Shown here: piece by piece, positions 5,569 to 23,486 of the stretch
Layout: the number at the start of each line of letters is the position of its first letter
How positions within the stretch are numbered: the first letter of the stretch is position 1
DNA from: Phycisphaerales bacterium
GTDB taxonomy: Bacteria > Planctomycetota > Phycisphaerae > Phycisphaerales > SM1A02
Length of the DNA: 36,423 bases
Reading direction: 5' to 3'
Assembly (NCBI GenBank): GCA_022446965.1
Contig: JAKVBV010000022.1
Coordinates: forward strand, 1-36,423
Position numbers and translations under genes: made by a program
The notes under the pieces: model-generated
Databases searched by the model: none
Told to the model about the DNA's origin: nothing
What the model saw: only the letters and a program-made list of their open reading frames with translations

Positions 5569-5653
5569 TACCGGAGGTGGGACTCGAACCCACACTCCCT
5601 AAACGGGAAACGGATTTTGAATCCGTCGCGTCTGCCAATTCCGCCACTCCGGC
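5569..5653 (-). tRNA. tRNA-Leu (anticodon CAA)
   Basis: An 85-nt class II tRNA reads on the minus strand. The acceptor stem GCCGGAG pairs with CTCCGGT (one G-U at the first pair), with discriminator A. The anticodon arm is ACGGA-TTCAAAA-TCCGT, giving CAA. There is a long variable arm with a CCC/GGG stem, and the T-arm is GTGGG-TTCGAGT-CCCAC. The 3' CCA is not encoded. Confidence 0.96.
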
Positions 5654-5742
5654 AATGCGGGGCATCATCTCCACTTGTTGGTCAGTTTGCCAGCCGACAG
5701 TGGCGGGAAACTCCACGGGATACGTGGAACTACACTGCGTTG

Positions 5743-7017
5743 ATGGCTGCACGGCATGCATCGAAGAAGCGACACGCATCCTCATCTGGGCAGGAGTCCG
5801 ATGACGGCTCGTCCGGCGGAGGGCTCAAGACCTTCATCCCTTGGATCGTGTTGGTCGGAGCCGCGGCCATCGTCACGGCATTCGCGTTGGATCTCGGTGC
5901 GCCTGCACCAACGCCGGCACGCCCGGCACCGGCGCAGCCCTCCACGCCACTGGCAAGTACCCAGCTCACAAATCGGCCAGTGACGACGGCGCCGGCTGCT
6001 CCGGCGCCCTCGCCCACAGCCAAGGCCAACTTCACGGTGTCTCCGGCCGTGCTCGACTACGGCACACTCGCCCCGGGCGAAGTGAAGCCCATTGACGCCA
6101 CGGTGACCAACACTGGCGACGAGCCACTTCGGTTCACCGGTGAAATGAAGGGATGCAGTTGTACCACCCTGGATCTGCGTCCGACCACGGTGCAGCCTGG
6201 TGAATCGGTCACCTTCGCCGCCACCATGACGGCCGGGCTGACGCCCACGACCAAGAAGTCATCAATCCGCCTGGTGCTTCGTGACCACCAGCCAGCCCGC
6301 ATCGAGGTGGATGGCGAGATTGTTCGGGGTGTTCGGGTGAATCCACGGCGGCTCGCTGCGGTCGGTCGCCCGGCCGACAATCCCGATGGACCAGCGGTGC
6401 CCGTGCAGGTGCGTCGTGTGCGGTTCGAATCGCCCTCAGGCACCCCGTTCCGGATCCTCCGTGTGGATGGTCGAGACGTGAAGACGTTCATCGGCGGTGA
6501 TCGATTCCTGAACCCGCAGCCGACCCATGCCTTTATCTTCGACGACTTCGAGCAGTGGGACCCGGTGACCGGGCTCAATGACAAGGGCGAATTGATGCCC
6601 TTCTTCCGGATGATCGAAACGGATCATCCTGGCGGAGAAGTCATCGCAATTCCGGTGGACCATCCAGCCCGCGTCGCCCATCTGGAACGCCGCGGCGAGC
6701 GGCCCTGGTTGTGGGTGGAAACACATCTGGTGGTCGGGGCAGTCGAGCCTGGCGGCACGATCGCCTTTGACGTGCCCATCAAGATGGCTGGAGCCAATGA
6801 GGCTGAAATGGTGCACGGTGTGACGAGTGAATCTCCCGACGTGCTCGATGTCACGCTGGCCGGTATTCGGCGTGAGGGGCGAGAGTGGCGGGCCACGATC
6901 AATGTGACGCCCAAGCGCACTGACGACGGTGCGTTTCTTGGTCGCATCCGCTTCCACAGTCCGAACTACTCCGCATCGGTCCCGGTGATCGGTGCCGTCC
7001 GCACCACCGGCGCGTGA
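5743..7017 (+). CDS. DUF1573-type single-pass membrane protein
   Basis: The protein has 424 residues from ATG 5743. The frame is open further upstream, but that part crosses the tRNA-Leu gene on the other strand, so the ATG after it is chosen. A Lys/His/Ser-rich cytoplasmic start is followed by one membrane helix (about 29-50) and a Pro/Ala-rich linker (52-95). Residues 97-195 resemble DUF1573: F-x-PAVLDYGTLAPGE, then VTNTGDEPLRFTG, the CSC motif in KGCSCTTLDLRP and VQPGESVTF. The rest (200-424) is probably further beta-sandwich domain, likely extracytoplasmic. It overlaps ispD by GTGA. Function is unknown; family members are abundant in planctomycetes. Confidence 0.87.
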   Translation: MAARHASKKRHASSSGQESDDGSSGGGLKTFIPWIVLVGAAAIVTAFALDLGAPAPTPARPAPAQPSTPLASTQLTNRPVTTAPAAPAPSPTAKANFTVSPAVLDYGTLAPGEVKPIDATVTNTGDEPLRFTGEMKGCSCTTLDLRPTTVQPGESVTFAATMTAGLTPTTKKSSIRLVLRDHQPARIEVDGEIVRGVRVNPRRLAAVGRPADNPDGPAVPVQVRRVRFESPSGTPFRILRVDGRDVKTFIGGDRFLNPQPTHAFIFDDFEQWDPVTGLNDKGELMPFFRMIETDHPGGEVIAIPVDHPARVAHLERRGERPWLWVETHLVVGAVEPGGTIAFDVPIKMAGANEAEMVHGVTSESPDVLDVTLAGIRREGREWRATINVTPKRTDDGAFLGRIRFHSPNYSASVPVIGAVRTTGA

Positions 7018-7778
7018 TTGTCTCGGCGATCATTCCGGCGGCTGGAGCAGCGTCACGCTTCGGCGAAGACAAGTTGGCTCGTCAACTTGGTGGTCGCCCC
7101 GTGCTGGTTCGTGCAGTCGAAGCCTTGTCCAAGCGGGACGAAGTGCGAGACATCATCGTGGCTGGTCCACCTGATGATCTGAGCGCATTCACTGCTCGCT
7201 TCGGTGATGTGCTGGGTTTTCTCGGTGCCACCATCGTGCCCGGCGGGGCTCAGGCGCGTTGGCAAACCGTCGCCGCTGCACTGACGCATGTGGCTGACGA
7301 CTGTACGCACATCGCCGTGCACGATGCCGCTCGGCCGTGCCCAGGCGAGGCGCTCCTTGATCGGGTCTTTGCGGCGGCGGCCAAACTGCCAGCCGTGGTC
7401 CCGGGCGTTGCTGTGAGTTCTGCCGTGAAGCGAGTGCAGGTGGGGCGCGTCCATGTGGTTCGCGACGACGATGTCGTGGCGGATGCGATTCTTGGCGCGG
7501 ACAGTGATCCGGGTATTCAGGCGTGGCCTGTCAGTGACTCCGTCGAGCGTGCAGGCTTGATGACAGTGCAGACGCCACAGGTGTTCCATGCTGATCTGCT
7601 GCGTCGTGCCCATGCGGAGGTCGATCCGAATGGTGCCGTGGATGATGCCGATCTCGTGCAGCGTCTGGGTGAACCTGTGCATGTGGTGCACGGCGACCCC
7701 ATGAATGTGAAGCTCACGCATCCTGCCGATTGGTCCATGGCGGAAGCGGCGCTCCGCGGCGGAGGAAGTGTGCTGTGA
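7014..7778 (+). CDS. ispD: 2-C-methyl-D-erythritol 4-phosphate cytidylyltransferase
   Basis: The 254-residue enzyme transfers CMP from CTP to methylerythritol phosphate, the third step of the non-mevalonate isoprenoid pathway in the cytoplasm. Family motifs are in order: nucleotide-binding loop PAAGAASRFGEDK (8-20), AVHDAARP (101-108), TPQVF (187-191), VDDADL (209-214) and GDPMNVKLTHPADW (227-240). The length exceeds the usual ~230 because of extra residues around 142-172. The GTG start overlaps the preceding stop (GTGA), so translation is probably coupled. No ispF is adjacent. Confidence 0.93.
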   Translation: MIVSAIIPAAGAASRFGEDKLARQLGGRPVLVRAVEALSKRDEVRDIIVAGPPDDLSAFTARFGDVLGFLGATIVPGGAQARWQTVAAALTHVADDCTHIAVHDAARPCPGEALLDRVFAAAAKLPAVVPGVAVSSAVKRVQVGRVHVVRDDDVVADAILGADSDPGIQAWPVSDSVERAGLMTVQTPQVFHADLLRRAHAEVDPNGAVDDADLVQRLGEPVHVVHGDPMNVKLTHPADWSMAEAALRGGGSVL

Positions 7779-8884
7779 ATGGTGACCGTCATGTCACGGT
7801 GATCGTGCCGGCCTATCAAGAGGCGGAGAGTCTGCCGCCGTTGCTCGAGCGTATCGCTGCCGTGCGAAGCGATGACACCGTCATCGAAATCCTCGATGTG
7901 ATCGTCGTCAATGACGAATCGGGAGACGGTACTCAAGCGGCTGTCGACGCACTGGGGCTGGACTGGGTGCAGGTGATCACCCGCACCGAAGAGCGCGGGC
8001 TTAGCAGTGCGGTGCTGCATGGTCTCGCCGCGGCTCAAGGTGACATCCTCATCGTGATGGATGCAGATCTGTCTCATCCGCCGGAGGCCATTCCAGCGTT
8101 CGTCAAGGCGCTCCAGCGTGGTGCCGACTTCGCTCTGGGGTCACGCTATGTCCCCGGGGGCAGCACGGAGGATGGCTGGGGCGTGTTGCGCTGGGTCAAC
8201 TCCAAGATCGCCACCTGGATGGCACGGCCATTCACCACCGTGAAGGATCCCATGAGTGGGTTCATCGGCATCCGTCGCGATACATGGTCGCACGCTGTCG
8301 ACCTTGACCCGGTTGGATACAAGATCGGTCTCGAGTTGATCGTGAAGTGTCGATGCATGCACGTTGTGGAAGTGCCCATCCACTTCTCCACGAGGCAACT
8401 GGGGCACAGCAAGCTAACGTTGCGTGTGCAACTTGAGTACCTGCAGCATGTGATCCGGTTGCTGCGGTGGAAGTTCCCCGGCTGGTCCAGCTTTATCCCA
8501 TTCGCGGCGGTCGGCGCCAGTGGCATGGGCGTCTATGTCGGATTGCTTGCCGTCTTGAGTGCATTCGTGCCCGATTGGAGCACGCTTTCGCAGACGATCG
8601 TGGCCGCACTCGGTGCCATGCTGTGGAACTTCGTGCTCGATCGCTGGTTGGCATTCTGGTACGCGACGCGAGGCAACATTGTGAAGCAGGCCCTTGGCTT
8701 CATGGCGATCTGCAGTGTGCCGGTCCTGGTGAACATTCTGATCACGGTGTCACTTGCAGGTGAAGCGTGGGGCACGCCCTTGGCTGGCGTCGTGGGTTCG
8801 CTGGTGGGGTCGGCCGCGGGCCTGTTGTTCAACTGGCTCATGACACGGTGGTTGGTATTCGGGAGCTCCAAGCATGTCACGTGA
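7775..8884 (+). CDS. GT2 glycosyltransferase (dolichol-phosphate-mannose-synthase type) fused to GtrA domain
   Basis: The protein has 369 residues from GTG 7775, which sits 6 nt after GGAGGAAG and overlaps the ispD stop (GTGA). Residues 7-235 are a GT-A glycosyltransferase of family 2: VIVPAYQEAESLPPLL at the N-terminus, the metal-binding DAD (96-98, in MDADLSHPPE), GSRY (122-125) and the acceptor-side QLGHSKL. Residues 238-362 are a GtrA-like membrane domain with about four helices and the repeated pattern NFVLDRWLAFW and NWLMTRWLVF. Such fusions load a sugar onto polyprenyl phosphate for envelope glycoconjugates. The exact sugar cannot be read. Its stop overlaps the methyltransferase gene by 11 nt. 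Confidence 0.92.
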   Translation: MNGDRHVTVIVPAYQEAESLPPLLERIAAVRSDDTVIEILDVIVVNDESGDGTQAAVDALGLDWVQVITRTEERGLSSAVLHGLAAAQGDILIVMDADLSHPPEAIPAFVKALQRGADFALGSRYVPGGSTEDGWGVLRWVNSKIATWMARPFTTVKDPMSGFIGIRRDTWSHAVDLDPVGYKIGLELIVKCRCMHVVEVPIHFSTRQLGHSKLTLRVQLEYLQHVIRLLRWKFPGWSSFIPFAAVGASGMGVYVGLLAVLSAFVPDWSTLSQTIVAALGAMLWNFVLDRWLAFWYATRGNIVKQALGFMAICSVPVLVNILITVSLAGEAWGTPLAGVVGSLVGSAAGLLFNWLMTRWLVFGSSKHVT

Positions 8885-9539
8885 GACCATTGGATTGACG
8901 GGGGCCATGCAGCAGTGGGTGGTTGATCACGGCACCGACGAGACCGACGTTGCTGTGCAGTTGCGAACCGCCATGGCAGACCACCCTGAGGGTGGCATGC
9001 AGACATCGCCAGAACAAGCGCAGCTGCTCCGTACGCTGGTACACGTCACTGGGGCGCAGCGCATCTTGGAGGTGGGGGTGTTCACCGGCTACAGCGCGAT
9101 GCTCATGGCATCGGCGCTCCCGCCAACAGGCACACTCATTGCCTGCGACATCAGTGAGCACTGGCTGGCCACGGCACGCACGTGGTGGGCGCGAGCGGGG
9201 GTGTCCGATCGCATCGAGTCACGATGCGGTCCGGCGATCGACACCTTGCAGGCGCTCATCGACGATGGGCACGCGGGCACCTTCGACATGCTGTACATCG
9301 ATGCCGACAAGACGTCCAGCGACGCCTATTGCGAGGTGGGCCTCACGCTGGTCCGGCCCGGTGGCGTCATCGCCATCGACAACATGTTCCGCGGTGGCCG
9401 AGTTGTTGATGCGCACGCCGATGACGAGAGCACGGTGGCCACACGCGCATTGGCGGCAAAATGGTCGGCCGATCCGCGTGTGTGCTGGAGTCTGCTTCCG
9501 ATCGGCGACGGCCTCGGTGTAATGACGCCGTTGGCCTGA
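8874..9539 (+). CDS. SAM-dependent O-methyltransferase, CCoAOMT-like family 3
   Basis: A soluble protein of 221 residues. The SAM-binding glycine loop is ILEVGVFTGYSA (64-75) and the acidic end of strand 2 is ACDIS (90-94). The divalent-metal site typical of the catechol/caffeoyl-CoA O-methyltransferase group is present as YIDADK (141-146) and AIDN (167-170). The family methylates ortho-dihydroxy aromatic or similar hydroxyl groups; the substrate here is unknown. ATG 8874 lies inside the end of the glycosyltransferase gene. The gene converges on uvrA with an 8-nt gap. Confidence 0.93.
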   Translation: MSRETIGLTGAMQQWVVDHGTDETDVAVQLRTAMADHPEGGMQTSPEQAQLLRTLVHVTGAQRILEVGVFTGYSAMLMASALPPTGTLIACDISEHWLATARTWWARAGVSDRIESRCGPAIDTLQALIDDGHAGTFDMLYIDADKTSSDAYCEVGLTLVRPGGVIAIDNMFRGGRVVDAHADDESTVATRALAAKWSADPRVCWSLLPIGDGLGVMTPLA

Positions 9540-9547
9540 ACTTGCAG

Positions 9548-12445
9548 TCAATCTATGTCCCGAAGGCAGGCACCGGTGCGGCTCTCTGGGATTGCTGCGA
9601 TGTCCGATGGCGTGCCTGTCGCCACCACGGTGCCGCCGCCGGATCCCCCTTCCGGTCCAAGATCGATGATCCAGTCGGCCGCTTTGATCACGTCGAGATT
9701 GTGCTCGATCACGATCAGCGTGTTCCCGCGATCAGCAAGCCTTTGCAGCACACTCAACAGACGATCGACATCACTGAAGTGCAGGCCGGTCGTCGGCTCG
9801 TCGAGGATATACAGCACCGATCCCTGTCGGTTGGCGCCAAGTTCGCGTGCGAGTTTCACCCGTTGTGCTTCGCCGCCGGACAAGGTGGTTGCCTTCTGTC
9901 CGAGTTCCAGGTAGCCCAGGCCGACCTCGTTCAGGCAGACAAGCATGCGATGCATACGGCCTTGGGCTTCGAAGAACGGCGCGGCTTCTTCGATGGTCAT
10001 GTCCAGCACATCAGCGATCGACTTTCCCTTCCACTTCACTTCGAGCGTCTGCGGGTCATACCGAGTGCCCTCACATGCCGTGCAGGTGACGAACACATCG
10101 GGTAGGAAGTGCATCTCGATGCGCTTCACGCCCTGGCCCTGGCATTCTTCGCACCGGCCGCCCTTCACATTGAAACTGAACCGCCCGGGTTGCCAGCCGC
10201 GAAGGCGTGCTTCACGCGTAGCGGCGAAGAGCTTGCGGATGTCGTCAAATATGCTCGTGTATGTGGCCGGGTTCGACCGAGGCGTACGACCGATGGGGGA
10301 CTGATCCACCTGCACGATGCGGTCGATGAGGTGCAGGCCATTGACCCGATCGTGCCCGCCGGGGATCACCCGAGCACCATGCTTCTCTTTGAGCGCGACC
10401 TGCAGCAGCACGTCGTTCACCAACGTCGACTTGCCTGAGCCACTCACGCCCGTGACGCAGGTCAGTCCGTGCAGGGGGAATGCCACATCGATCGACTGGA
10501 GGTTGTTGGCGCGGGCCCCTTTGACCGTGAGCGCCTTCTTCGCGTTCAAAAGCCGCGGCGCTCGGTCGGCGTCGCCCACGTGTTTGCGGCCGGCGAGGTA
10601 GTCGCCGGTCTGCGACGCGCGGTTGGCCTGCAACTGTTTCACGGTGCCTTGGGCCACCACAGAGCCGCCATGCACGCCGGCGCCAGGTCCCATGTCGATC
10701 ACTTGATCGGCGGCTCGGATCATCTCTTCGTCGTGTTCAACAACCAAAACGGTATTGCCGATGTCGGCCAGCCCACGGAGCGTGCGAATCAACCGTGCGT
10801 TGTCGCGCTGATGCAGGCCGATTGTCGGCTCGTCCAGCACGTAGCACACACCTACCAGGCCGGATCCCACTTGCGTGGCCAGCCGAATGCGTTGAGCCTC
10901 TCCGCCAGAGAGCGTGTTCGCTGCTCTGTCGAGCGTGAGGTATTCAAGGCCGACACTCATGAGGAAGCCCAGCCGCGCCTGCACTTCGCGCAGGATCGGC
11001 GCGGCGATGGCGGCTGATTCGGTGGACAGTTGAAGCTCGTCGAAGAAGGTGCTCGCCTGCGTGATCGTCATGCGTCCGACATCGGCCAGGCTCACGCCTT
11101 CGCCATCAGGTCCGGGGAGCATCACATGCACGCTTTGCGAGCGAAGGCGAGCGCCATGACACTCGGGGCATGTGTGCTGGGCCATGTACTGCGCCAACTT
11201 CTCTCGCACATGTTCGCTTTCGGTTTCCCGCCAGCGTCGTGTGAGATTGGTCAGCACACCTTCGAACTTAAACCGGCCTGGGGGAGCGCCGTACAGCAAC
11301 AGTTTGGTGTGCTTTGGATTGAGTTTGTTGAATGGAGTTCCCTTGTCGACACCGGCGTGCTCGCGAAACTTGCGCATCTGCCTGGCGTACCAGCTGTTCA
11401 TCCGTTTGCCGTTTCCGCGCCATGGGAGTACAGCACCGCCGTCGAATGGCAGCGATGGATCGGGGATCACGAGGTTCGTGTCGAACTCGCGGATGGACCC
11501 AAGCCCGTCACATCGTTGGCAGGCGCCAAACGGGCTGTTGAACGAGAACAGTCGAGGCTCAATCGCTTCCATGGCGCAGGCCGGGTGTTCGGTGCATGCC
11601 AGGTGCTCCGACCAGTGCGAGGTGATCCATTCGCCGTCGCGTTCTTCCAGCGTGAGCAGCAGCCCACCTCCGGCGCGAAGCGATGTCTCCACGGACTCCT
11701 GAAGCCGCTGCTTCACATCTGGTGAGATCACGATGCGATCGACGACCGCTTCGATGTCGTGCTGCTCATAGCGGCCCAGGTCCAGAGGATTCTCACCGTC
11801 ACGGGAGAGCACATCCCGCAGGTCGTGCACGGTGCCATTCACCCGGACGCGGACGAAGCCGGCTCGTTGCAGATCTTCGAGCACATCCTTGTGGTATCCC
11901 TTGCGGGCCCGCACGATCGGCGCACAGAGCATGAGGCGGGTGCCCGAGGCGAGTTGGAGCAAGGCTTGCACGATCGCCGCCGAGGACGTGCCTTCGATGG
12001 GGCGTCCGCAGGTGCCACCGCCGTCAACCGGGGCCCAGCATGTTGGTCGTCCCGCTCTGGCATACAGCAGGCGGAGGTAGTCTTGAATCTCCGTGGTCGT
12101 CGCCACTGTGGAGCGTGGGTTGTGCCCGCCGCTGCGCTGTTGGATGGCGATGGTGGGCGGCAGGCCTTCGATCGACTCGATGGCAGGCTTGGACAACTGC
12201 TGCAAGAATTGACGGGCGTAGGCCGTCAGTGACTCCATGTACTTGCGTTGCCCTTCGGCAAAGACAGTGTCGAAGGCGAGGGACGACTTGCCCGAACCAC
12301 TCACGCCTGTGATCACGACGAGGCTGTCGCGCGGGATCTCCACGTCGACATTGCGCAGATTGTGTTCGGCGGCGCCACGCACGGCGATCACGCCCTTGCC
12401 CGCCCGTGTGCGTTTCGTCGATGTGCGGGCCGCAGCAGGGGGCAT
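9548..12445 (-). CDS. uvrA: Excinuclease ABC subunit A
   Basis: This 965-residue ABC ATPase scans DNA for damage with UvrB in nucleotide excision repair. Seen are Walker A GVSGSGKS (47-54) and a second copy in the C-terminal half, two LSGGEAQR signatures, and two Walker B segments ([11 protein letters not shown] and [11 protein letters not shown]). The C-terminal zinc module [10 protein letters not shown]...CTAC is normal. The first zinc module departs from the usual CxxC: the window has CTEHPAC (284-290), with the downstream pair CQRC (309-312) retained. Length is normal for the family. The start lies 4 nt after the stop of the ABC-2 permease gene, so the two are probably cotranscribed although unrelated in function. 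Confidence 0.97.
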
Positions 12446-12449
12446 GATG

Positions 12450-13592
12450 TCAGCCCAATTCGCGGCGCTGGAAGAGCATGATGCCCAGAGCCAGTGCCAT
12501 GCACGTGTACAGCACGCCGTAGCCCAGTGAACTCAAAAGGTAGCTTGATGGAATCATTACGCCCTGCGTGAGTGCGTCGCTGAGCCAAAGCACCTGGAAG
12601 TTGGGAACGAGTCCGTATGTAGCCTTCAGCGCGAGCCAGCCGATGTACTCGCCGCCCTGTGCGAATGATGACAGCGGCACGGTGGCGACATCCACCATGC
12701 GAATCACCTCTTCAGGTGTCTCGCCGACACGGTGCAGCACCGTGATCTGTTCGATCTGGTCCACCTGGCCTGCCGTGGTTGCGCGTTCAAGCCAGTTGGC
12801 TTCGATGTCGTGCATCGGTCGGGCGAAGAGCCAGTCGGACAGCAAGCCGGTCACCAGAATGGCGAGGGTGGCCAGCAGTGTCATCACTTGACCCAGTCGA
12901 GTTGAAAACGCCACTGCAAACGCAGCGAGCATGCACTCGGCCATGGCGATGGCCAGTACCGCAATCCAGATCTGTCCCTTGAACGACTCGGCCATCGGTC
13001 GTGGGCTGAAGTCGGGCTCAAAGTTGAGGGTCACCAGATAGCCCACCAACAACATCGGTGTGATCACGAACAACGCGGTGCTCGTGAACACGGTCCCGTA
13101 GAAGTAGTTGCACCAGACCGCAATCGCCAGGCCCAGGACCAACGAGCCGAACCCGAACACGATCACCGGTACGTGCACCGGATCACGCACCGTTTGAATC
13201 ACGGCGTGCAGTTCGGTCATGGCAAAGACCAGTGACAGGCATAGTGTGGCCAGCATGAGCGCCCCGGCGACGCCGAGGAACTTGCCCACCAGGAAGACGG
13301 TCCGGCCGACGGGCTTGGAGACCACCGTGAGGGCTGTCTTCTGGGCAATCTCACGCCCCAGCACGCCCGTGGCGATGAATGCAGCGAGTACCGCACCACC
13401 GGTAAAGACGGTGGCCAAGCCGATGTCGATCAGCATGCGCTGATCCTCGCCCATGGTGAAGGCCGCCAGAGGGTTGCTCATGACGATCAGGAGGGCGGCC
13501 CCAGCCACCACCACCAGCGTGATGGGCTGTCGGATGCTCTCAAAGAAGGTGTTTCGGGCAATTGCCAGCAGGGCGGTCGGCATCTGGGGCAT
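12450..13592 (-). CDS. ABC-2-type transporter permease, without its own ATPase
   Basis: The protein has 380 residues from ATG 13592. The frame is open further upstream but without membrane-protein character, and the ribosome-binding site is weak. It starts with the conserved amphipathic segment [17 protein letters not shown], followed by about seven hydrophobic helices. Residues 91-108 ([18 protein letters not shown]) are the ABC2_membrane_2-type coupling motif, nearly matched in the permease at 19386-21503. A soluble stretch at about 260-320 precedes the last helices. No transporter ATPase is adjacent; uvrA follows. It is read divergently from the SPFH/ABC operon with 191 nt between, so it may use that operon's ATPase. 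The substrate is unknown. Confidence 0.87.
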
Positions 13593-13783
13593 GGTACGGC
13601 CGGTTTGGTCCCTGTGCGCCCCCCTGAAGGAGGGCTTCAGAAGGGCTGTCGTGGTACATTTTCGCCCTTCAACCTCACCCCAGGGTGAACCTCCCACGTT
13701 CTGGGGCAGTACGGCAACGATCGAGTTCTTCTTCGGATGAGTTGGCCCGGGAGGGCGACGGCTACAGGAGCCTCCTGAATTCC

Positions 13784-15892
13784 ATGCGTGTTGATCACCT
13801 CGCCTACCAACGGGCACTCCACATCACGACATTCGGACTGCTGCTGCAGGCACTGGTTGGTGCCATCCTGCTGGTGTTCGGCCTCGGCGTGGATGATGGC
13901 CCGTCTCAGTTGGCCGCCATCTGGTGCCTCATCGGCCTGATTCCGTGGATTGGTCTGCTGGTCGTCTTCGCCCAGCACCGGTTGGAGCGGCTCGAAGCAC
14001 TCGAAGAAGACGAACTTTCCGGCTCAGGCGCCACGGCGCTGTTCGAGCGATCTGGCGAAGCGGTGCGGCCTGCGGCCCGTCGTCTTCGCATGGCCTACAA
14101 GTGGATGCTGCCGGGCTTCTCGGTGGCGTACGCCATCGGCTTGATCATCGCAGGCTGGATGGCCATGAACTGGCTCGGCAGCGAAGATCTTGTCTCGTTG
14201 CCCTTGACGGAGTACCGCGGCTGGATCGAAGCCATTTTACTGTCCAGCTCGGCCGTCTGTTTCGTGTGCTCCCGATACCTCGCGGGTATGGCTGCACAAG
14301 AGGTGTGGCGACATTTGCGAGCAGGTGCTGGCCAGATGGTGTCCGTCGCACTGGTGCTCGGTGCCATGGCGGTCGGTGTCGCGTTCCGGTTCTTCGACAT
14401 CGACGGCGTTATTGAAACCGTCAGCTGGGCCGTGCCCGTGCTCATGTTCGCCGCGGCCCTGGAGATCGTGCTGAGTTTGGTGCTCAATGCGTATCGTCCC
14501 CGTCGCGCCGGCGAGTTCCCCCGTGCGTCGTTCGATTCTCCGAGCATGAGCCTATTGGCCCAGCCTGGGTCGGTCGTGCGGTCGATCAATGAAGCGGTCA
14601 ACTACCAGTTCGGATTCGACATCACCAGCTCCTGGGGCTATCAGCTCCTGCTGCGAAGCAGTCTTGGGCTTGGTGGCCTGGCCGTGCTGGTGCTGCTGTG
14701 CATGAGCACGGTGGTGGTGGTGGGGCCACGCGATCAGGGGCTACGACTGCGCAGCGGCGCGATCGTCGGCGATGCCGATGCAGCCGTGAAGGGCCCAGGT
14801 CCATTCGTGAAGCTGCCTTGGCCATTTGAATCGGCCAGTCTGTTCGACGTGACCGAGGTGCGCACGCTCGCCGCCACGCCGGTTCCGGTGGATGAGCCCG
14901 ACTACTACGACTGGCGTGAACCGCCAGAACTCAATGAGCTCTTCGATCCGGCCTACGTCGTGCGTTCATCTTCGCTCGGCGACCGAGGTGAAGCCGCACA
15001 GGAGGGCCACGCACTCGTCGTGCCCGATGTCCGGATCGCATGGCGTGTGAACGGTGGCGAGTTGCTGCAGTATCTGCACTTCGTCGCGGATGAACGACGG
15101 CCTCGTCAGACGGTGACGCAGCAGCAGCGCGTGATTCAACTTGTCGCCAAGGCTGAAATGACTCGGATGTTCTCGACGATGCGCCTGGATCAGGTGCTGT
15201 CGACCGATCGCAATCAACTTGGGTCCATGCTTCGCGATGCCATCCAGAAGCGTCTGGATACCGTCGACGCGGGCATCGCCATCGTGGCCGTTGAAGTGCC
15301 CGATGTCCGGCCGCCCAAGGACGTGGCCATCAAGTTTGAGGGCTTGCCCATCGCTATTCAGCAGCGCGATCAAACCGTGGCGGCGGAGGAGCGACGAGAA
15401 GTCGCAATGTTCACGGCGCTCGTGGGCGACTACGACCTCGTCGACAAGGTGCTCGCCGCCGTCGATCGAGTGGAAGACGCTCGCACTGCATTGGAAGACG
15501 TTCGAGCCGATGAGAGCGCGACGGATGCCCAACTCGCTGCGGCCCGAGCGGCCGTGCAGAAGGCCACACACGAGGCAGAAGCGTTGCTCCGTACCGGCGG
15601 CGGCCAGGCGTGGCAGGCCATTGCGAACGCCGAACGTGACTACTGGGTGGGCTTGATGGATCAGCGGGTGCGAGCCAGTCGCATTCAGGGGCAGTCCGCC
15701 TCTTGGGAGGCCGCGCCGGATCTGTATCGACAGCGAGCCATCATGGAGGTCTACGCCGACATGCTGCCCAATCTCCGCAAGTACATCGTGGGCATCGACC
15801 CCGATCGTTTGAATCTGAACGTCGAGATGCAGGAACACGCCTCGACAAACACGATCTTCTCCGACACCGTGTCGGCCGGATCGGATGAGTGA
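13784..15892 (+). CDS. SPFH/band-7 (HflK-like) protein with seven-helix N-terminal domain
   Basis: The protein has 702 residues from ATG 13784, preceded by AGGAG at a longish 13 nt; an in-frame GTG at 13685 would add 33 residues. Predicted membrane helices lie near 13-35, 44-62, 107-128, 146-165, 184-203, 212-234 and 290-312. A linker segment with AVNYQFGFDITSSWGYQLL precedes the last helix. From about 312 to 530 runs an SPFH domain (VVVGPRDQGLRLRSGAIVG, VPDVRIAWRV, VEVPDVRPP), followed by an Ala/Glu-rich coiled coil (about 540-650) as in HflK. HflK normally has a single helix, so the polytopic part is an addition. It is the first gene of a six-gene operon and overlaps the next by 8 nt. Confidence 0.85.
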   Translation: MRVDHLAYQRALHITTFGLLLQALVGAILLVFGLGVDDGPSQLAAIWCLIGLIPWIGLLVVFAQHRLERLEALEEDELSGSGATALFERSGEAVRPAARRLRMAYKWMLPGFSVAYAIGLIIAGWMAMNWLGSEDLVSLPLTEYRGWIEAILLSSSAVCFVCSRYLAGMAAQEVWRHLRAGAGQMVSVALVLGAMAVGVAFRFFDIDGVIETVSWAVPVLMFAAALEIVLSLVLNAYRPRRAGEFPRASFDSPSMSLLAQPGSVVRSINEAVNYQFGFDITSSWGYQLLLRSSLGLGGLAVLVLLCMSTVVVVGPRDQGLRLRSGAIVGDADAAVKGPGPFVKLPWPFESASLFDVTEVRTLAATPVPVDEPDYYDWREPPELNELFDPAYVVRSSSLGDRGEAAQEGHALVVPDVRIAWRVNGGELLQYLHFVADERRPRQTVTQQQRVIQLVAKAEMTRMFSTMRLDQVLSTDRNQLGSMLRDAIQKRLDTVDAGIAIVAVEVPDVRPPKDVAIKFEGLPIAIQQRDQTVAAEERREVAMFTALVGDYDLVDKVLAAVDRVEDARTALEDVRADESATDAQLAAARAAVQKATHEAEALLRTGGGQAWQAIANAERDYWVGLMDQRVRASRIQGQSASWEAAPDLYRQRAIMEVYADMLPNLRKYIVGIDPDRLNLNVEMQEHASTNTIFSDTVSAGSDE

Positions 15893-16802
15893 GACCATGA
15901 AGAAGAAATCAGCAATTGTCGTCGGGTTGATCGTGGTGGGTGTACTGATGTTGTTCAGTACCACTTTCTCCGTGGCCTACAACGAAATCGCGATTCGTAG
16001 CCGTTTCGGCAAGGTCGATGAACACAGCATCGTGCGAGAACCCGGGCTGCATTTCCGATTGCCCTTCTTCGCCGACTCGATCCACACCATGGACACGCGG
16101 TTGCAGTTGCTTGAGTCGCCTCAGGAAACCGTACAAACCAAGGATGGCCAGCAGGTCGTGGTTCGCGGGTTTCTGCTGTGGCGAGTGGATACCGATGGCG
16201 AAGGTCCGTTGAACTTCTACGAGGCCTATCCCCAGATGGCTGATGCCACCGGGTCACTGCAGACGCAGTTCCGCGATGCCCTCAACGCCATCGGTGGATT
16301 CACGTTGAATGAACTGCTTGATGCCGACAGCAAGCTGCCAGAGGCCGAAGCGGCCGTGCTCGCTCGCATGCAGGAGAACGTTCACGAGGGCGTGTCACCT
16401 GTGAGTGCTGGTATCAGTCGTCTTGTCTTCAAGGAGTCCACCACGGGCGAAGTGACCCGCCGCATGCGGGCCCGTCGCGACACCTTGGCCGAGAACGAGA
16501 AAGCGCGAGGTGCCGCCGAGGCTCAGCGCATCCGATCAGAAGCCAAGACGACCTCCGAGAAGATCATGGCCTTCGCGTCCCAGCGAGCGCAGGAGATTCG
16601 CACGCAAGGTGAAGAACATGCCGCGTCCTATCTCGCACAGATGAACGAGGACGAAGAACTGGCGGTGTTTCTGATCTGGCTGGACACGCTTGAGAAGGCG
16701 TTGTCAGAGAACACGACGATCATGCTCGACATGGATCAGGCGCCCTTCCATCTTCTTGATCCCACCGCAGATCCGACTCGAACGCTGGGAGCCGGCAAGT
16801 GA
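15885..16802 (+). CDS. SPFH/band-7 protein, HflC-like
   Basis: The protein has 305 residues from ATG 15885 (ATG 15897 is an alternative). One N-terminal membrane helix covers about 10-31. The SPFH domain has the HflC layout: AYNEIAIRSRFGKV, EPGLHFRLPFF, DTRLQLLESPQETVQTKDGQ and the RGFLLWRV strand. An Ala/Glu/Arg-rich helix (TRRMRARRDTLAENEKARG) and a C-terminal helical cap follow. In other bacteria HflC assembles with HflK into a large cage around the FtsH protease in the cytoplasmic membrane. No ftsH is in this window. The gene overlaps the next one by GTGA, suggesting balanced synthesis of the SPFH subunits. Confidence 0.88.
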   Translation: MSETMKKKSAIVVGLIVVGVLMLFSTTFSVAYNEIAIRSRFGKVDEHSIVREPGLHFRLPFFADSIHTMDTRLQLLESPQETVQTKDGQQVVVRGFLLWRVDTDGEGPLNFYEAYPQMADATGSLQTQFRDALNAIGGFTLNELLDADSKLPEAEAAVLARMQENVHEGVSPVSAGISRLVFKESTTGEVTRRMRARRDTLAENEKARGAAEAQRIRSEAKTTSEKIMAFASQRAQEIRTQGEEHAASYLAQMNEDEELAVFLIWLDTLEKALSENTTIMLDMDQAPFHLLDPTADPTRTLGAGK

Positions 16803-18235
16803 CGGAGATCGATCCGCGACAAGACGCTGCCCAAGATGCCTCCCCCCGACGGGAAGCATCGGCTCGACTGGATGTCGACGGCGTGGTCGGTTCCGAAGCA
16901 CAGCTTCGTGAAGCCATGGACCCGGCCAACCAGAGCCTGACCGACGCGCTGCGGCTGAGCTTCCGCGTATTGCAGGTGGCCATCATCGTGCTCGCCGTGC
17001 TCTTCCTCTTCTCCGGGTTCCGCACTGTCGGCAACGGGGAAGGTGGTGTCGCCACGGTCTGGGGCGAGATCAGCGACCCGGCAGGCCTTGAGCCTGGTTT
17101 GGCCACGAACTGGCCGCCACCAGTGGGCGACTTCGTGCTGTTCAAGGCGGACGGTCGATCCGTCACCGACAACAATGCGTTCGTGTCCCTGGCACAGATT
17201 GCTCATGGTCAGGAACGGTCCATTCAGAAGGCCGTCGTCACTGATCGGCTGAAGCCCGAGCGTGACGGTTCCTTTCTCACGGTGGGTGGCGAGATCGGGC
17301 ACATTCGTGTGTCGGCCACATATGCCGTGGCCGATCCGGCTCGCTTCCTGGAATCCGTTGGTGACCGTGAAGCCGACGCACTCGTGCGATTGGCATTGCA
17401 ACGTGCCGTCATTCAGGTTGGCGCATCGCACACCTTGCAAGACTTGCGAGACACCATCACGCCTGACCTGCTCAAGTCGATGTTGCGTGACCGAACGCAG
17501 GCCATGCTCGAAGCAGCGAGCACTGGTCTGATGGTCACGTCCATCGAGATGAGCCAGTCTCCGCTGCCCCCGGCGGCCATTCAGCAGGACTTCGAGTCGT
17601 ACAGCCGTGTCCGTCAGGAAGTCGCTGCCGACATCGAGCAGGCCCGACAAGACGCCCAGGAAACGCTTCTTGCTGCCGCTGGTCCGGGTCATGAAGCACT
17701 TGCAGCATTGATCGATGAATATGAGCGAGCATGGGCGCAGGGCGACACTGGCGCCGCCGAGGCTGTGCTCGCCCGCATGGACGAGGCCTTCGAGCAGTCC
17801 GATGTCACTGGCAACGTGGCTCGCGTGATCGATTCGGCTCGTCGTCATCGCATCGGTATCGATCAGACGCTCGGTCGCGATGCACGATTGTTCGCTGGTC
17901 TGCAGCAGGCCTATCAGGCCAATCCACAATCAGTGATCGCACGTCGATGGCTGGAGACGATCGGTCGCATCTATGGTCGCCCCGATGTTGAATTGATGCA
18001 GTTGCCCGAAGGGCTTGGCGCACTGGAGTTGAACATAACCAGTTCGCAGGTCATCAAGGATCTCCGTCGCACCATGCGGCTTGATCGGATCGACTCGGAG
18101 GCCTGGCAACGTGGCTTCACTGGATCAGCGCTGGATCAGTTCCAGGACGAAAGCGAAATCAAGATGGACGCGGGCGGCCGCCAGTTGGCGATCGACGAAA
18201 AGGGCCGTGTTAAAGGCATGCGGGAGAAGGACTGA
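16799..18235 (+). CDS. SPFH/band-7 (HflK-like) protein, third paralogue
   Basis: The protein has 478 residues from GTG 16799, which overlaps the preceding stop. A charged cytoplasmic start is followed by the conserved stretch ANQSLTDALRLSFRVLQ and one helix (about 55-73). The SPFH-like domain then begins FRTVGNGEGGVATVWGEI. Its middle resembles HflK (ISATYAV-like strand IRVSATYAVADPARFL, IEMSQSPLPPAAIQQDF). A helical coiled-coil part (about 265-400) and a polar C-terminus follow. It differs clearly from the other two SPFH proteins in the operon, suggesting a three-subunit assembly. The stop overlaps the ATPase start as TGATG. Confidence 0.85.
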   Translation: MTEIDPRQDAAQDASPRREASARLDVDGVVGSEAQLREAMDPANQSLTDALRLSFRVLQVAIIVLAVLFLFSGFRTVGNGEGGVATVWGEISDPAGLEPGLATNWPPPVGDFVLFKADGRSVTDNNAFVSLAQIAHGQERSIQKAVVTDRLKPERDGSFLTVGGEIGHIRVSATYAVADPARFLESVGDREADALVRLALQRAVIQVGASHTLQDLRDTITPDLLKSMLRDRTQAMLEAASTGLMVTSIEMSQSPLPPAAIQQDFESYSRVRQEVAADIEQARQDAQETLLAAAGPGHEALAALIDEYERAWAQGDTGAAEAVLARMDEAFEQSDVTGNVARVIDSARRHRIGIDQTLGRDARLFAGLQQAYQANPQSVIARRWLETIGRIYGRPDVELMQLPEGLGALELNITSSQVIKDLRRTMRLDRIDSEAWQRGFTGSALDQFQDESEIKMDAGGRQLAIDEKGRVKGMREKD

Positions 18236-19389
18236 TGGCGTCCGCTCAACACAGCGGTCCGATCGTTGAAGCGGTCGGGCTCAGCAAGATCTTCCGTGAC
18301 TTCTGGATGCGGGCGCGAGCCCGCGCAGTGGACGGCATCACGTTCACCATCGAAGAGGGCCAGATCTTCGGCATGCTCGGCCCCAACGGATCGGGCAAGA
18401 GCACGACGATCAAGATGATCCTCGGCCTGTTGCGGCCCACCTCAGGTCGGCTCAGCGTGTTTGGCCGTCCGCCTTCGGACGTCGCCGTCAAACGACACAT
18501 CGGCTTCCTGCCGGAAGAGTCGTATCTCTACCGCTACCTCACACCGCTGGAGACTCTGGACTACTACGGTCAACTGTTCGGCATCGCTCGCTCAGAGCGT
18601 CGTCGTCGTGGTGAAGAATTGCTCGACATGGTCGGTCTGGGCCCTGTGGCGCACCGCCACGTGGGCGAATTCTCCAAGGGCATGACACGCCGATTGGGCC
18701 TTGCTCAAGCCTTGGTCAACGATCCGGACTTCCTCATCCTTGACGAACCCACCAGTGGCCTCGACCCGATCGGGACACGTCAGGTGAAGGAACTCCTGCT
18801 GGAGCTCAAGAGCCGTGGCAAGTCGATCCTGCTCAGTTCGCACCTGTTGGGTGACGTGCAGGATGTGTGCGACACCATGGTCATGCTCTACGGCGGTCGC
18901 ATCCGCGCACAGGGCACAGTTGACGAACTGCTGACCGACGACAGCCAGACGGTCATTCGTACGCCGAGCTTGTCGGCCGACGTGGTCGAGCGCATCGAGA
19001 CAGTGCTGCGTGAAGCCGGTACGGCCGTGGAGTCGGTCGAGACGCCGCGGCAACGTCTGGAAGATCTCTTCATGGATATGGTTGAGCAGGCCCAGCAGGA
19101 ACATGCGGCCACATCGGGCGCTCTCAGTGGTGGGGAAACGGCGCAGTTCCTTCGTGATGACGACACTGATGAGGCCAAGAGTCTGCTCGACGAACTGCAG
19201 CACGAGCCCATGCCTGTGGAGGCACCCGCCGCCGCGGCATCGGAGACGACTGAGGCACCGTCGATCGTGAGTGATCTCGTCTCCAATGATGCTGGCCAAC
19301 CTGTGTCAGATACGCCGTCTTCCGGCGCCGCTCACGATGATGATGTCATCGGCGACCTCCTTGATTCCGATGGGGAGTCGCGCGGTTGA
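18235..19389 (+). CDS. ABC transporter ATP-binding protein, ABC-2 class
   Basis: The protein has 384 residues. The nucleotide-binding domain spans about 8-235: Walker A GPNGSGKST (49-57), Q-loop region FLPEESYLY, signature FSKGM (146-150, a variant of LSGGQ common in ABC-2 exporters), Walker B FLILDEPTSGLD (166-177) and switch His in SSHLLGD (His203). After a short helper segment to about 280 there is a roughly 100-residue tail rich in Ala, Ser, Asp and Glu with no recognised fold. It would power the permease encoded next, whose TTG start overlaps this stop, and possibly the divergent permease at 12450-13592. Confidence 0.93.
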   Translation: MASAQHSGPIVEAVGLSKIFRDFWMRARARAVDGITFTIEEGQIFGMLGPNGSGKSTTIKMILGLLRPTSGRLSVFGRPPSDVAVKRHIGFLPEESYLYRYLTPLETLDYYGQLFGIARSERRRRGEELLDMVGLGPVAHRHVGEFSKGMTRRLGLAQALVNDPDFLILDEPTSGLDPIGTRQVKELLLELKSRGKSILLSSHLLGDVQDVCDTMVMLYGGRIRAQGTVDELLTDDSQTVIRTPSLSADVVERIETVLREAGTAVESVETPRQRLEDLFMDMVEQAQQEHAATSGALSGGETAQFLRDDDTDEAKSLLDELQHEPMPVEAPAAAASETTEAPSIVSDLVSNDAGQPVSDTPSSGAAHDDDVIGDLLDSDGESRG

Positions 19390-21503
19390 GTGTCATCGAG
19401 GCTCTGCGTCAGCGCCTAGAGCAGTGGCAACGGTTGCGTTGGTTCCGGATCTGTGCGTCCGTCCTCATTGTCGTGGCAGCCGGGCTCACGTTCGGCCGAG
19501 CTGCGTATGAAGGTGGCCGATTCTCCGATACGTTCACAGTGGTCTTCGACGCGTTGGTTAGCGACGAAAACGCGATATGGGCGTCCGATCTACAGGAGAA
19601 GGGTGAGGTCGTCATTCCAGGGGCCGGCACCTTCACGCTTGATGCAGATCTCATCAGCACGCAGATCAGCCCGGAAGGGCAGATCCTCGATCCGCTCAAT
19701 CTGACATCGCTATTGATGGGGCCACTGGTGCCTGAGGGGTACCCGGATTGGCTGTGGTCGCAGCCCAGTGTCGCGTGGGCCATGGCCATCGCGATGGCTG
19801 CAGCCGGACTCATCATCGTGTGGACCGGGCTTGTGCCGCTGCTTGTGCTTGTCGGCTCCATCGCTGGCTTGGGCATCGCGGTGGCGAGTTGGTCAGGTGC
19901 AGATGCCGTGGCCATGGCCATTGGTGCCATCGGCGTGTTGCTGTTGTTGTTCCAAGGCATGGTGCGATTGGCCGTGCCGTGTCTGGAAGGCATGGGCCGC
20001 GGAGGGGCTGTGGCCGCCACCGTGCTCCGCGAGTCCGCTCGTAGCCGGGTGGCGCTGGCCTTTGTCGTATTGCTTCTGGTGATGTTGCCGTTGCTGCCGC
20101 TCACACTGGATCTCGGGGCACCGCTGCGGCACCAGGTGCAGTCCCTGCTGGACCGAAGCCTGAGCTTGACGTTCGCCATGGTCGCCGTGATGACGATGGC
20201 CGTGGGGTGCAGCACGATCGCGTTCGACATTCGCGACAGGCACATCTGGCATCTCGTGAGCAAGCCGCTGGGCACCGGCCGGTATCTGCTGGGCAAGTGG
20301 ATCGGTGTGATTTCGCTCAACGCCATCGTGCTGGTGGTGGCCGGCACATTCATTGCCGCTTGGACGGGCTATCTCCGCTTGTCGCCGCCGCCCAACTCCA
20401 TGGATGCCGGGCGCGACATCAGCATTGTCAATGACGAGATTCTCACGACTCGAGCTGAGCGCTTCCCCGACTACCCACGACTGAGTGAAGACCAAATTCG
20501 TTCAGCCGTCGACCGGATCATTCGCGAAGAGCCTGAGTACGTGCAGTACGCAGAGGGCGTAGCACCACGGGCCTTGATTCGCGTGCTGCGTGAAGAGGTC
20601 GTGGCGGACTACCACCGTGACCAGAGGCGGGCCGAGTCGATCCTGAACGAGTCCGAAGATCCGTGGCAGACCGTGCATTTCAGTGGGTTGTCTGAAGCCA
20701 AGGCGCTCGGCGAGCCGGTCCGGATTCGTTTTCGTCTGCTGGGTGGGAGTAGTGACGAGCATCAACGCATGCTCGTGGGCGTGGCGATCAATGAGAACCT
20801 CGAAGCGGGAATGGTGGGGGCGTTCATCCCCACCGTGCGACAGCATGTCGATCTGAGCCCAGATGCCATCCGAGATGACGGCACACTCGAGGTGACATTC
20901 GTCAACCTGACGCACGTTCCGGTGCCCATCGGCACGAGCTGGCGCCCAGCGAATCTTCGCGGACTGCTGGAGATTCCTCCGCAGCGTGAACCCTTTGCCA
21001 TCTTCTGGGAAGTCGAAGAGGTCGAGGTGCTGTATGCCGCCGGCGGATTCGTGCCCAACTACATTCGCTCACTGCTGGTGCAGTGGGTTCGGTTGGCGGC
21101 CTTGGCAGCGGTGGCCTGCTTCGCCGCCACATTCCTGAGCTTCCCCGTGGCCTGCCTTGCATCTCTCACCATCCTGGTCGGCGCGGCCATGGGTCCGTTC
21201 CTTGCTGTCGCGTTGGGCTTCTTCACGCCTCCGCCGCTGGAGTCGGTCGAAGGGGTGGGTGCCACGATCGCTTGGGTCATCGACAGCTTCATTCGAGTGG
21301 TCTCGATGTCGCTTGTCTACCTGCTTGAGTCCTTCGGTGAGTTCTCATCGGTCGACAGGCTCATTCAAGGGCGGCTCGTGAGTTGGGGCATGGTGGTTCG
21401 CAGCATCATTGAACTGGGGCTTGCCTGGTGCGTACCGTTGCTCGGCGTGGGATGGGTCATTCTTCGCAAGCGGCAACTGGCGATTTACAGCGGGGACTCC
21501 TGA
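19386..21503 (+). CDS. ABC-2-type permease with N-terminal extension and large extracytoplasmic domain
   Basis: The protein has 705 residues from TTG 19386 (TTGA overlap with the ATPase stop). Helix 1 is near 20-37, then a soluble stretch to about 125, then several helices (about 128-195). The ABC-2 core begins near 212 (VLRESARSRVALAF). Residues 291-308 (VSKPLGTGRYLLGKWIGV) match the motif in the divergent permease. A large polar segment from about 332 to 560 probably faces the periplasm. C-terminal helices lie in about 560-700. It is roughly 325 residues longer than the homologous permease at 12450-13592 because of the N-terminal extension and the inserted domain. The substrate is unknown. 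Confidence 0.87.
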   Translation: MSVIEALRQRLEQWQRLRWFRICASVLIVVAAGLTFGRAAYEGGRFSDTFTVVFDALVSDENAIWASDLQEKGEVVIPGAGTFTLDADLISTQISPEGQILDPLNLTSLLMGPLVPEGYPDWLWSQPSVAWAMAIAMAAAGLIIVWTGLVPLLVLVGSIAGLGIAVASWSGADAVAMAIGAIGVLLLLFQGMVRLAVPCLEGMGRGGAVAATVLRESARSRVALAFVVLLLVMLPLLPLTLDLGAPLRHQVQSLLDRSLSLTFAMVAVMTMAVGCSTIAFDIRDRHIWHLVSKPLGTGRYLLGKWIGVISLNAIVLVVAGTFIAAWTGYLRLSPPPNSMDAGRDISIVNDEILTTRAERFPDYPRLSEDQIRSAVDRIIREEPEYVQYAEGVAPRALIRVLREEVVADYHRDQRRAESILNESEDPWQTVHFSGLSEAKALGEPVRIRFRLLGGSSDEHQRMLVGVAINENLEAGMVGAFIPTVRQHVDLSPDAIRDDGTLEVTFVNLTHVPVPIGTSWRPANLRGLLEIPPQREPFAIFWEVEEVEVLYAAGGFVPNYIRSLLVQWVRLAALAAVACFAATFLSFPVACLASLTILVGAAMGPFLAVALGFFTPPPLESVEGVGATIAWVIDSFIRVVSMSLVYLLESFGEFSSVDRLIQGRLVSWGMVVRSIIELGLAWCVPLLGVGWVILRKRQLAIYSGDS

Positions 21504-21506: not shown

Positions 21507-23486
21507 ATGGCCAATGATCGTGTCATTCAAGGCGTGGCCATGGGCGTGATTCTCGCCGGCGGGGCCGGTGCATCCGTCCTTGTTCCCGATCTGGTGGATG
21601 AAGCCGAGCGGCACACGCTGCGGTACACCGATACTTCGGTTGAGAACGTGCCGCCCATCGTGGCGTTGGGCACGGCCATCGGTGCACTGCGTGGCTTGAT
21701 CGTCGACTACCTCTGGATCAAGGTCAACATGATGCAGGACCAGGGGCTGTACTACGACATGCTCGAGGACGCCCGGCTCATCACCAAGCTGCAGCCGCGC
21801 TTCGCGCCCGTGTGGACCTTCCATGGCCACAACATGGCCTACAACCTGTCGGTCAACACCAACACACCCGAAGAACGGTGGGAGTGGGTCCGCAAGGGCA
21901 TCGCGTTGGTTCGTGACGAAGGCCTCCGCTACAACCCAAACGACATTCTTCTGTATCGTGATCTGGCCTTCTGGCACGATCACAAGATCGAAGGCGTCAG
22001 CGATGATGCGCACCCGATCTACAAGCGTGAGTTCGCCAAAGAGTGGCATGACGTCCTGGGACAACCACCACTGACGTGGCCGGAGCGCACAGCTTGGATG
22101 CAGTCGATCGCCGATGCGCCGGACTCAGTCGAGATGCTGGTGGAGACGAATCCCGACGCCGCACTACTGGTTGATCGACTGAACGACGAGCTCGCGCCAC
22201 TGTTGCCCGAAGGAGCGACGGTGTTGGGACGAGAGCTGCTCCGCATGGTGACGATGCTCGAGGCGATCAACGGGGCGTCTTACACGGCGCAGGCCATGGA
22301 TCTTGCCGGCATGCTCGATGACAACGGCGATGCGGTCATGGGCAAGCTCGATGCATTGCGGCGTGATCCTGAACTGGCCCCGGGCTGGGATGCCCTGCTC
22401 GCCACCCTCCGCAAGGAGGTGCTGCAGGACCAGTACAACATGGATCCGCAGTTGATGGCCGAGTACACCCGCGACTTCGGTCCGATCGACTGGCGGCACC
22501 CGCAGGCGCATGCACTGTATTGGTCGCGCACCGGCGGCAAGCGTGGTGAACGCCGCGTGAGTGACGACGATGACCATCACGCCATCAACACCGATCGTCA
22601 GCAGTTGCATTCGCTGCAGGATCTTGCTCGCGGTGGTCGTGTGATGTACGACCCGTTCAGTCCGAGCATGCCCGGGCGGTTCCCAGAACCAGACTTCATC
22701 GACACCACGTCGCAGCTCTTTGACGAGCTGTATGTGAAGTACAACGAGTCTTCGGGCATGGGCGGAGAGACGTTTCTCGAGTTCATCAAGAACTTCCTCG
22801 GTCACAACATCCGCGTGGCGTTCCGGCAAGGCGAAACCGAGCGGGCGGAAGAGTTGTACGACCTGCTGGACCGTCGATTTGGCCGTGGTGCGTTCCCGCC
22901 CAATCCCGCCTACTCCATGCCGCTGGACGTCTTCGTGCGTGAGATCGGTCGCGACGAGTACGACCGCCAGCCGTATGTGGCCTTGAGCGATGTCATCGGT
23001 GGCTTGCGCTACGCCTTCCGCGTTGGCGTGGGCCAAAACCGGCCCGAGATTTACGAAGAGGCCATCGCCTTCGCCAACGACGTGACGGAGTTCTTCCGAA
23101 CGCACGAGTTCATGGACTTCGAAACCAAGATGGGCACCGGGCGCATGCGCGATCTCGTGTCCCAGATCGGACAGAGCGCGGAGCTGGCGTTCCTGCAGTT
23201 GATGACCGATCCATCCGTGCCCATCGAGGAACGGGCCACGATCTGGGCGCAGGTCGACGACATGGAACCGCAGATCCGAATGCGAACCTACGACCGCATT
23301 CGCCCATGGCTCGACCGTGAGATCAGTTCAGGCCCGCTGCGAGGTCGCATCGCTGTGGATCAGTTGCTGCCCGAGCCTCCTGGCATGGAGGCGTGGCGTG
23401 CTCAGCAGGCCGCTCAAGCCGTGCGTGAGGCGCAGGAAGATGGCGGCGGTCAGGGTGCGGGCGTCGAACGCACCGGCGATCGCTAG
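21507..23486 (+). CDS. Conserved planctomycete/verrucomicrobial protein of unknown function, VDYLWIK family
   Basis: The protein has 659 residues from ATG 21507, 3 nt after the permease stop, so it belongs to the operon. One hydrophobic helix lies near 6-27. Then comes a strongly conserved block: ALRGLIVDYLWIKVNMMQ, the stretch TKLQPRFAPVWTFHGHNMAY and TPEERWEWVRKGIALVRDEG. The spacing and helical character (about 60-140) suggest TPR-like repeats. The rest is helical and charged and contains many Tyr/Trp and a His/Asp patch (DDDDHH). I recall this family from Planctomycetes and Verrucomicrobia, sometimes under misleading automatic names. No enzyme motif is seen. A scaffold role for the SPFH-ABC machine is inference. 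Confidence 0.82.
   Translation: MANDRVIQGVAMGVILAGGAGASVLVPDLVDEAERHTLRYTDTSVENVPPIVALGTAIGALRGLIVDYLWIKVNMMQDQGLYYDMLEDARLITKLQPRFAPVWTFHGHNMAYNLSVNTNTPEERWEWVRKGIALVRDEGLRYNPNDILLYRDLAFWHDHKIEGVSDDAHPIYKREFAKEWHDVLGQPPLTWPERTAWMQSIADAPDSVEMLVETNPDAALLVDRLNDELAPLLPEGATVLGRELLRMVTMLEAINGASYTAQAMDLAGMLDDNGDAVMGKLDALRRDPELAPGWDALLATLRKEVLQDQYNMDPQLMAEYTRDFGPIDWRHPQAHALYWSRTGGKRGERRVSDDDDHHAINTDRQQLHSLQDLARGGRVMYDPFSPSMPGRFPEPDFIDTTSQLFDELYVKYNESSGMGGETFLEFIKNFLGHNIRVAFRQGETERAEELYDLLDRRFGRGAFPPNPAYSMPLDVFVREIGRDEYDRQPYVALSDVIGGLRYAFRVGVGQNRPEIYEEAIAFANDVTEFFRTHEFMDFETKMGTGRMRDLVSQIGQSAELAFLQLMTDPSVPIEERATIWAQVDDMEPQIRMRTYDRIRPWLDREISSGPLRGRIAVDQLLPEPPGMEAWRAQQAAQAVREAQEDGGGQGAGVERTGDR

Follow-up and report, generated by a model that had tools for sequence, protein, structure and literature searches.

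What does the protein encoded at 21507-23486 on the + strand do, and does its place at the end of an operon of SPFH and ABC transporter genes offer a clue to its role? We refer to this target protein as TGT, and the window is the whole 36,423-nucleotide stretch of DNA that was analysed. TGT is the last gene in a run of six on the + strand (SPFH1, SPFH2, SPFH3, ABC ATPase, permease, and TGT), in which neighbours are joined by short overlaps or, between the permease TGA ending at 21503 and the TGT start codon, separated by a gap of 3 nt, exactly as had been read from the sequence at the outset. The features discussed below are as follows.

12450-13565, - strand: second ABC-2 permease, divergent, upstream of SPFH1
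13685-15892, + strand: SPFH1 (Band_7), with six hydrophobic segments N-terminal to the SPFH domain
15885-16802, + strand: SPFH2 (Band_7), HflC-like, below the NCBIfam equivalog cut-off
16799-18235, + strand: SPFH3 (Band_7), with a single hydrophobic segment
18235-19389, + strand: ABC ATPase of the DrrA/GldA/NosF/ABCA type, whose Walker A, signature, and Walker B motifs all look intact by eye
19386-21503, + strand: ABC-2 permease with a predicted NosY-like fold and a carbohydrate-binding-module-like insert at residues about 356-553
21507-23486, + strand: TGT, 659 aa, ATG to TAG, with a hydrophobic N-terminal helix and a predicted alpha-solenoid
21666-22022, + strand: TGT conserved core, residues 54-172, common to the phylum sample and Nitrospirota
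22359-22706, + strand: TGT second conserved block, residues 285-400, mostly in loci with SPFH genes, its distribution following ancestry

Searches of Pfam and NCBIfam gave no family for TGT at E <= 1, and no paralogue was found in its own genome, where the sole other match (E 0.07) contained stops. The CTAG at 23483-23486 is common to TGT and a convergent FAA-hydrolase gene, the two stop codons overlapping on opposite strands. Our searches of the open-access literature found no paper describing a TGT-type outer partner or its SPFH context. The PVC signature protein of PMC3444138, called small in that paper, was taken to be a different protein.

Occurrence of TGT and its linkage to the ABC genes

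A search with the whole of TGT found matches in 141 of 150 sampled genomes of the class, and a profile of the conserved core recovered 3 of the 9 that had been missed, for a total of 144. The same profile matched 188 of the 246 genomes of the phylum sample, which takes in 17 genomes of the class. Nearly all of the best 80 of 580 named relatives are titled as Phycisphaerae-group or Planctomycetota MAGs. Two loci titled Cyanobacteria and Dehalococcoidia (L132 and L159) encode a TGT core 64-66% identical to the Phycisphaerae query and are perhaps mislabelled or mis-binned MAGs. Among 72,556 plasmid records, tblastn gave three matches, all from Candidatus Manganitrophus (Nitrospirota) and two of them with identical TGT proteins. 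In viral contigs, no homologue was found with the whole protein, and none of the 40 pattern matches from the core-profile search was confirmed.

Gene neighbourhoods were compared in three sets: 73 class loci (L039-L111), hand-picked from the 141 genomes with a whole-TGT match; the named set, consisting of the best 80 of the 580 loci; and 40 non-class loci (L202-L241) from 37 genomes, picked for family spread among the core-profile matches listed. The named and class sets are not independent, several contigs being common to both (e.g., L123 and L075), and family f45 is under-sampled in the non-class set, with both of its two sampled loci lacking ABC genes. The proposed linkage would have been refuted had the orthologues consistently lain away from ABC and SPFH genes. 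Instead, an ATPase and a permease lie directly upstream of TGT in 67 of 69 class, 69 of 71 named, and 32 of 38 non-class usable loci, those with less than 3.5 kb upstream having been left out (4, 9, and 2, respectively). Four of the automatic misses (L060, L181, L203, and L219) have both ABC genes by eye, having been missed because the gap is larger, a further gene intervenes, or an ORF was called too long, while L163 has the permease without the ATPase. In five loci (L071, L210, L213, L240, and L241), no ABC ATPase or permease was called on the side of the TGT homologue. By our own count, loci from 49 family codes keep the order ATPase-permease-TGT. No permease-TGT gene fusions were present in the class and phylum ORF sets. 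It is clear from these counts that the linkage of TGT to the ABC genes is real and strong. Of the two Manganitrophus records examined, one plasmid (L245) has the triad intact, and in the other (L246) the permease and TGT ORFs are annotated in pieces. This Nitrospirota triad shows that the family reaches beyond the Planctomycetes-Verrucomicrobia group to which the sequence-only reading had assigned it.

SPFH genes were counted where the upstream sequence extends for 8 kb or more: the full set of three occurs in 54 of 62 class, 58 of 61 named, and 9 of 34 non-class loci, and 8, 2, and 25 loci, respectively, have none; a single genome (G207) even has one TGT copy with SPFH genes and one without (L211 and L212). 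The core unit is ATPase-permease-TGT, to which part of the family adds SPFH genes, because the triad is kept across loci while SPFH is often missing. The proposed tie to an SPFH-ABC operon thus holds across the phylum sample for the ATPase and permease and fails for SPFH in most non-class loci. In this way, a protein family present in nearly every sampled genome of the class and about three quarters of the phylum sample gains its first functional context, together with testable partners. The divergent permease, too, has relatives that are encoded on the strand opposite to TGT and lie over 4 kb upstream of it; such a gene is seen in 35 of the 62 class loci, 54 of the 61 named loci, and 2 of the 34 non-class loci.

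Predicted folds of TGT, the permease, and the ATPase

The conserved core of TGT has a mean column identity of 53% (alignment A2, 28 diverse rows). Across 77 sequences (alignment A3, the window plus 76 relatives, four incomplete rows of the 80 named loci having been left out), 27 columns are invariant, and 21 of these lie at residues 63-173; the three sequence blocks singled out at the outset are present at residues 60-77, 96-112, and 120-131, within the most conserved part of the family. An AlphaFold2 model built from the 77 sequences (mean pLDDT 87.9, pTM 0.84) consists of a long N-terminal helix (residues 2-35), 29 further helices of at least 4 residues, and two short strands, with conservation peaking in the helices at 50-184 and then at 332-376 and 419-440.

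When the model was compared with the PDB, Foldseek returned no match at E <= 0.001 (best E 4.3e-3). A second structural aligner placed TPR/HAT solenoids at the top (SKI complex, LGN, and OGT, Z 9.3-12.3), the SKI-complex chain aligning over 212 residues at an rmsd of 6.2 with Z 12.3, a value inside the range below about 13 that can be generic for helical repeats. The matches listed are helical-repeat proteins or large assemblies. Unlike these solenoids, TGT fails TPR sequence models and the TPR motif: none of seven relatives scanned reached a TPR Pfam cut-off (best TPR_17 in L219, 20.4 bits vs 24.4), and a crude scan for a 34-residue motif, with a pattern written from recall, gave a mean best score of 9.95 against 10.2 in shuffles (20 of the 77 rows). 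By sequence, TGT matches solved structures only weakly: no protein A or P450 chain does better than E 0.0015, and a designed chain reaches 0.12. Judged from the model, TGT is an alpha-solenoid, probably TPR-like in fold, and not a sequence-defined TPR protein, so that the earlier description as TPR-like fits the predicted fold and not the sequence.

An N-terminal hydrophobic segment was detected in all 77 sequences at a lenient threshold. The 10 residues ahead of this segment contain a mean of 1.7 K/R, and the 15 residues behind it have a net charge averaging +0.3. A further TM-like stretch beyond residue 70 occurs in 5 of the 77, and the window TGT itself has a second hydrophobic stretch at 48-66, which the model puts in a solenoid helix. 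These features fit, modestly, a signal anchor that leaves the solenoid outside the cytoplasm, which is its probable location.

The permease was modelled from 67 sequences (alignment A4, 66 of the 73 permease rows plus the window; pLDDT 82.8, pTM 0.82). The model matches the NosY chain 7znq_y of NosDFYL with Z 18.9 and an rmsd of 3.4 over 230 residues of a 250-residue chain, and the entry after NosY reaches only Z 9.8. Foldseek alone gave nothing at E <= 0.001 for this model, and by sequence no solved structure matched better than E 0.018. In the model, a jelly-roll insert spans residues about 356-553, resembling BcsB and carbohydrate-binding modules including CBM35 (Z 7-9.7). The nearest solved relatives of the ATPase are ABCA1/3/4/7 (best E 3.1e-64), followed by NosF (E 1.5e-46).

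Possible roles of TGT

The known system that the triad most invites comparison with is NosDFY, which serves nitrous oxide reductase maturation. NosD is a periplasmic beta-helix, NosY is not thought to carry substrate, and the ABC part is thought to work by moving NosD via ATP hydrolysis. The window system shares with NosDFY the predicted permease fold, an ATPase related to NosF, with ABCA proteins scoring higher, and a partner protein encoded beside the ATPase and permease; it differs in that the partner is a helical solenoid in the model, whereas NosD is a beta-helix, and in having the jelly-roll insert and SPFH genes. TGT is probably a dedicated external part of the ABC machine because it is nearly always encoded right behind the ATPase and permease. 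We put the probability at roughly one half that, specifically, an ABC-2 machine resembling NosFY has TGT as its dedicated extracytoplasmic subunit, the helical solenoid standing where NosDFY has NosD. In such a machine, the N-terminus of TGT would be cytoplasmic and the solenoid would lie on the outer face of the inner membrane, docked onto the outer domain of the permease. ATP hydrolysis might then move this pair, as is thought for NosD, and the movement would lead to cargo being handed over or released at the membrane surface. The assembly may, in Phycisphaerae, be enclosed or stabilised by the three SPFH proteins. Several observations speak against this assignment: the topology signal is modest, given the mean charge of +0.3 and the second hydrophobic stretch at 48-66; TGT has no NosD-like fold; the ATPase is nearer to the lipid-moving ABCA proteins than to NosF; the permease has no Foldseek match at E <= 0.001; and five loci have no ABC genes.

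As far as tested, the system is not of a new kind, because its engine is a NosFY-like ABC pair; what may be novel is the outer partner with its SPFH context. Were a NosY-like core to work with another outer partner, this would favour the view of this ABC type as a general mechanical driver with a swappable outer subunit. If the SPFH proteins serve the ABC machine, HflK/HflC-like proteins would also gain a role beyond FtsH control.

A candidate cargo for the NosFY-like machine is a metal or cofactor, in view of the P-type ATPase genes in many SPFH loci. Where the upstream sequence extends for 8 kb or more, relatives of one P-type ATPase (PF00122 and PF00702) occur in 38 of the 121 loci that have three SPFH genes and in none of the other 36; these sums draw on overlapping locus sets, ignore kinship, and count one locus with two SPFH genes among the 36. 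The contrast is carried by the non-class set (p 5e-7) and is not significant in the class set alone (p 0.18). Of 42 copies, 32 lie between SPFH3 and the ABC gene; the window operon has no P-type ATPase gene. Such a gene is seen in or beside the operon at, e.g., L056, L061, L136, L158, L204, L209, L211, L224, and L237, and the P-type ATPases of L209, L211, L224, and L237 have CPS, CPG, CPL, or CPV replacing CPC, which is odd for a metal pump. A bolder and on balance unlikely proposal is that these loci represent an undescribed class of Planctomycetota envelope machine in which a NosFY-like mechanotransducer, held in Phycisphaerae within a three-SPFH cage, drives the membrane-anchored solenoid in place of NosD and passes an ion or cofactor to envelope proteins. 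The ion or cofactor would then be collected at the inner membrane, and the SPFH proteins would organise an ABC machine and not a protease.

An alternative candidate cargo, an envelope glycan or protein, is suggested by the jelly-roll insert and the pilus-type neighbours in Nitrospirota, and the same evidence bears on the strongest rival explanation, in which a true exporter of envelope polysaccharide, lipid, or pilin-like protein uses TGT as its receptor or docking part. Here, the permease would move the cargo, the jelly-roll would bind it, and the solenoid would receive it, in the manner of PilGHI or a polysaccharide ABC-2 exporter. Besides the likeness of the insert to BcsB and CBM35, this explanation can draw on the ABCA phospholipid transporters being closest to the ATPase and on the genes that follow the triad in Manganitrophus. 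The triad of L245 lies inside a pilus or type II secretion-like locus (5164-15969), which encodes in order a prepilin, a small ORF, the ATPase, the permease, and a TGT homologue of 276 aa, after which come PilZ, secretin, PilM, a protein with a T2SSM match below the cut-off, an unknown ORF, and a second ABC-2 permease related to the Phycisphaerae divergent permease (best rows at phmmer E about 1e-19 to 1e-23). PilZ, secretin, and PilM also follow the triad in L219, from Planctomycetota, but this is the only one of the 40 sampled non-class loci with relatives of these genes, and none of the window operon genes is of pilus type. PilGHI of Myxococcus xanthus (TC 3.A.1.144.5) likewise combines a jointly encoded ABC ATPase, membrane part, and extracytoplasmic component, and PMC3924187 lists the three as receptor, ATPase, and membrane part, required for PilA export; PMC3724824 describes PilG, PilH, and PilI as essential for pilin passage across the inner membrane. 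The gene order there is G-H-I, whereas it is ATPase-permease-TGT here. The permease core, however, fits NosY, a protein regarded as moving no substrate of its own, and we consider the exporter possible but doubtful.

It is less plausible still, and in our estimation improbable, that TGT is primarily a component of an SPFH/FtsH quality-control assembly akin to an HflKC cage, with the ABC pair as its client or neighbour. The usual SPFH context is illustrated by Agrobacterium, where, according to PMC8656257, HflK and HflC sit with FtsH in detergent-resistant membranes. All three window SPFH proteins carry a Band_7 domain (48.3, 75.6, and 40.8 bits for SPFH1, SPFH2, and SPFH3 vs a cut-off of 23.6), and they account for every Band_7 match in the genome, which, together with the three SPFH genes upstream in most class and named loci, would suit an assembly of this kind, as would the one M41 (FtsH-type) match of the genome. 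In contrast to HflK/HflC, they fall below the NCBIfam equivalog cut-offs (hflC 104.8 vs 134.4 for SPFH2; hflK 52.6 and 51.7 vs 159.4), number three and not two, and are encoded with an ABC machine, while the sole M41 (FtsH-type) match of the genome is on another contig. The second TGT block might also be taken as a point in favour, as 60 of the 63 loci with SPFH genes have it, compared with 5 of the other 33 (Fisher p 6.5e-16). However, a quick ATPase tree of 91 of the 96 loci (5 without ABC genes dropped, several long rows placed unsurely) needs 5 changes for the SPFH label and 2 for the block, and an independent-pairs test gives p = 1. Because shared ancestry explains the association, it shows no contact, and we rejected it as a sign of such. 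Moreover, SPFH genes are missing from most non-class loci (25 of 34), in which the triad is nonetheless kept.

The TGT homologues without ABC genes have varied neighbours. An H+-pyrophosphatase gene follows the TGT homologue in 11 of the 40 non-class loci (L215-L218, L220, L223, L233, L234, L239, L240, and L241), the Pfam family having been confirmed in two, and L240 and L241 are orphans without ABC genes; a relative occurs in 2 of the 73 class loci. The orphan L210 (2870-3809) has as neighbours a MotA/ExbB-type gene and another, ExbD-like one that scores below the Pfam cut-off, and cytochrome c assembly and FtsK genes adjoin L213 and L071, respectively. These orphans are what favours a mere relic of old shared transcription, with TGT serving a separate function, for example as a scaffold for another envelope complex, which is very unlikely given that the triad order persists across so many family codes and on a Nitrospirota plasmid.

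Elsewhere in the window, the gene at 1577-4693 on the - strand encodes a 1038-aa protein with repeated DxDGDG-type stretches that, by eye, resemble calcium-binding, thrombospondin type 3-like repeats.
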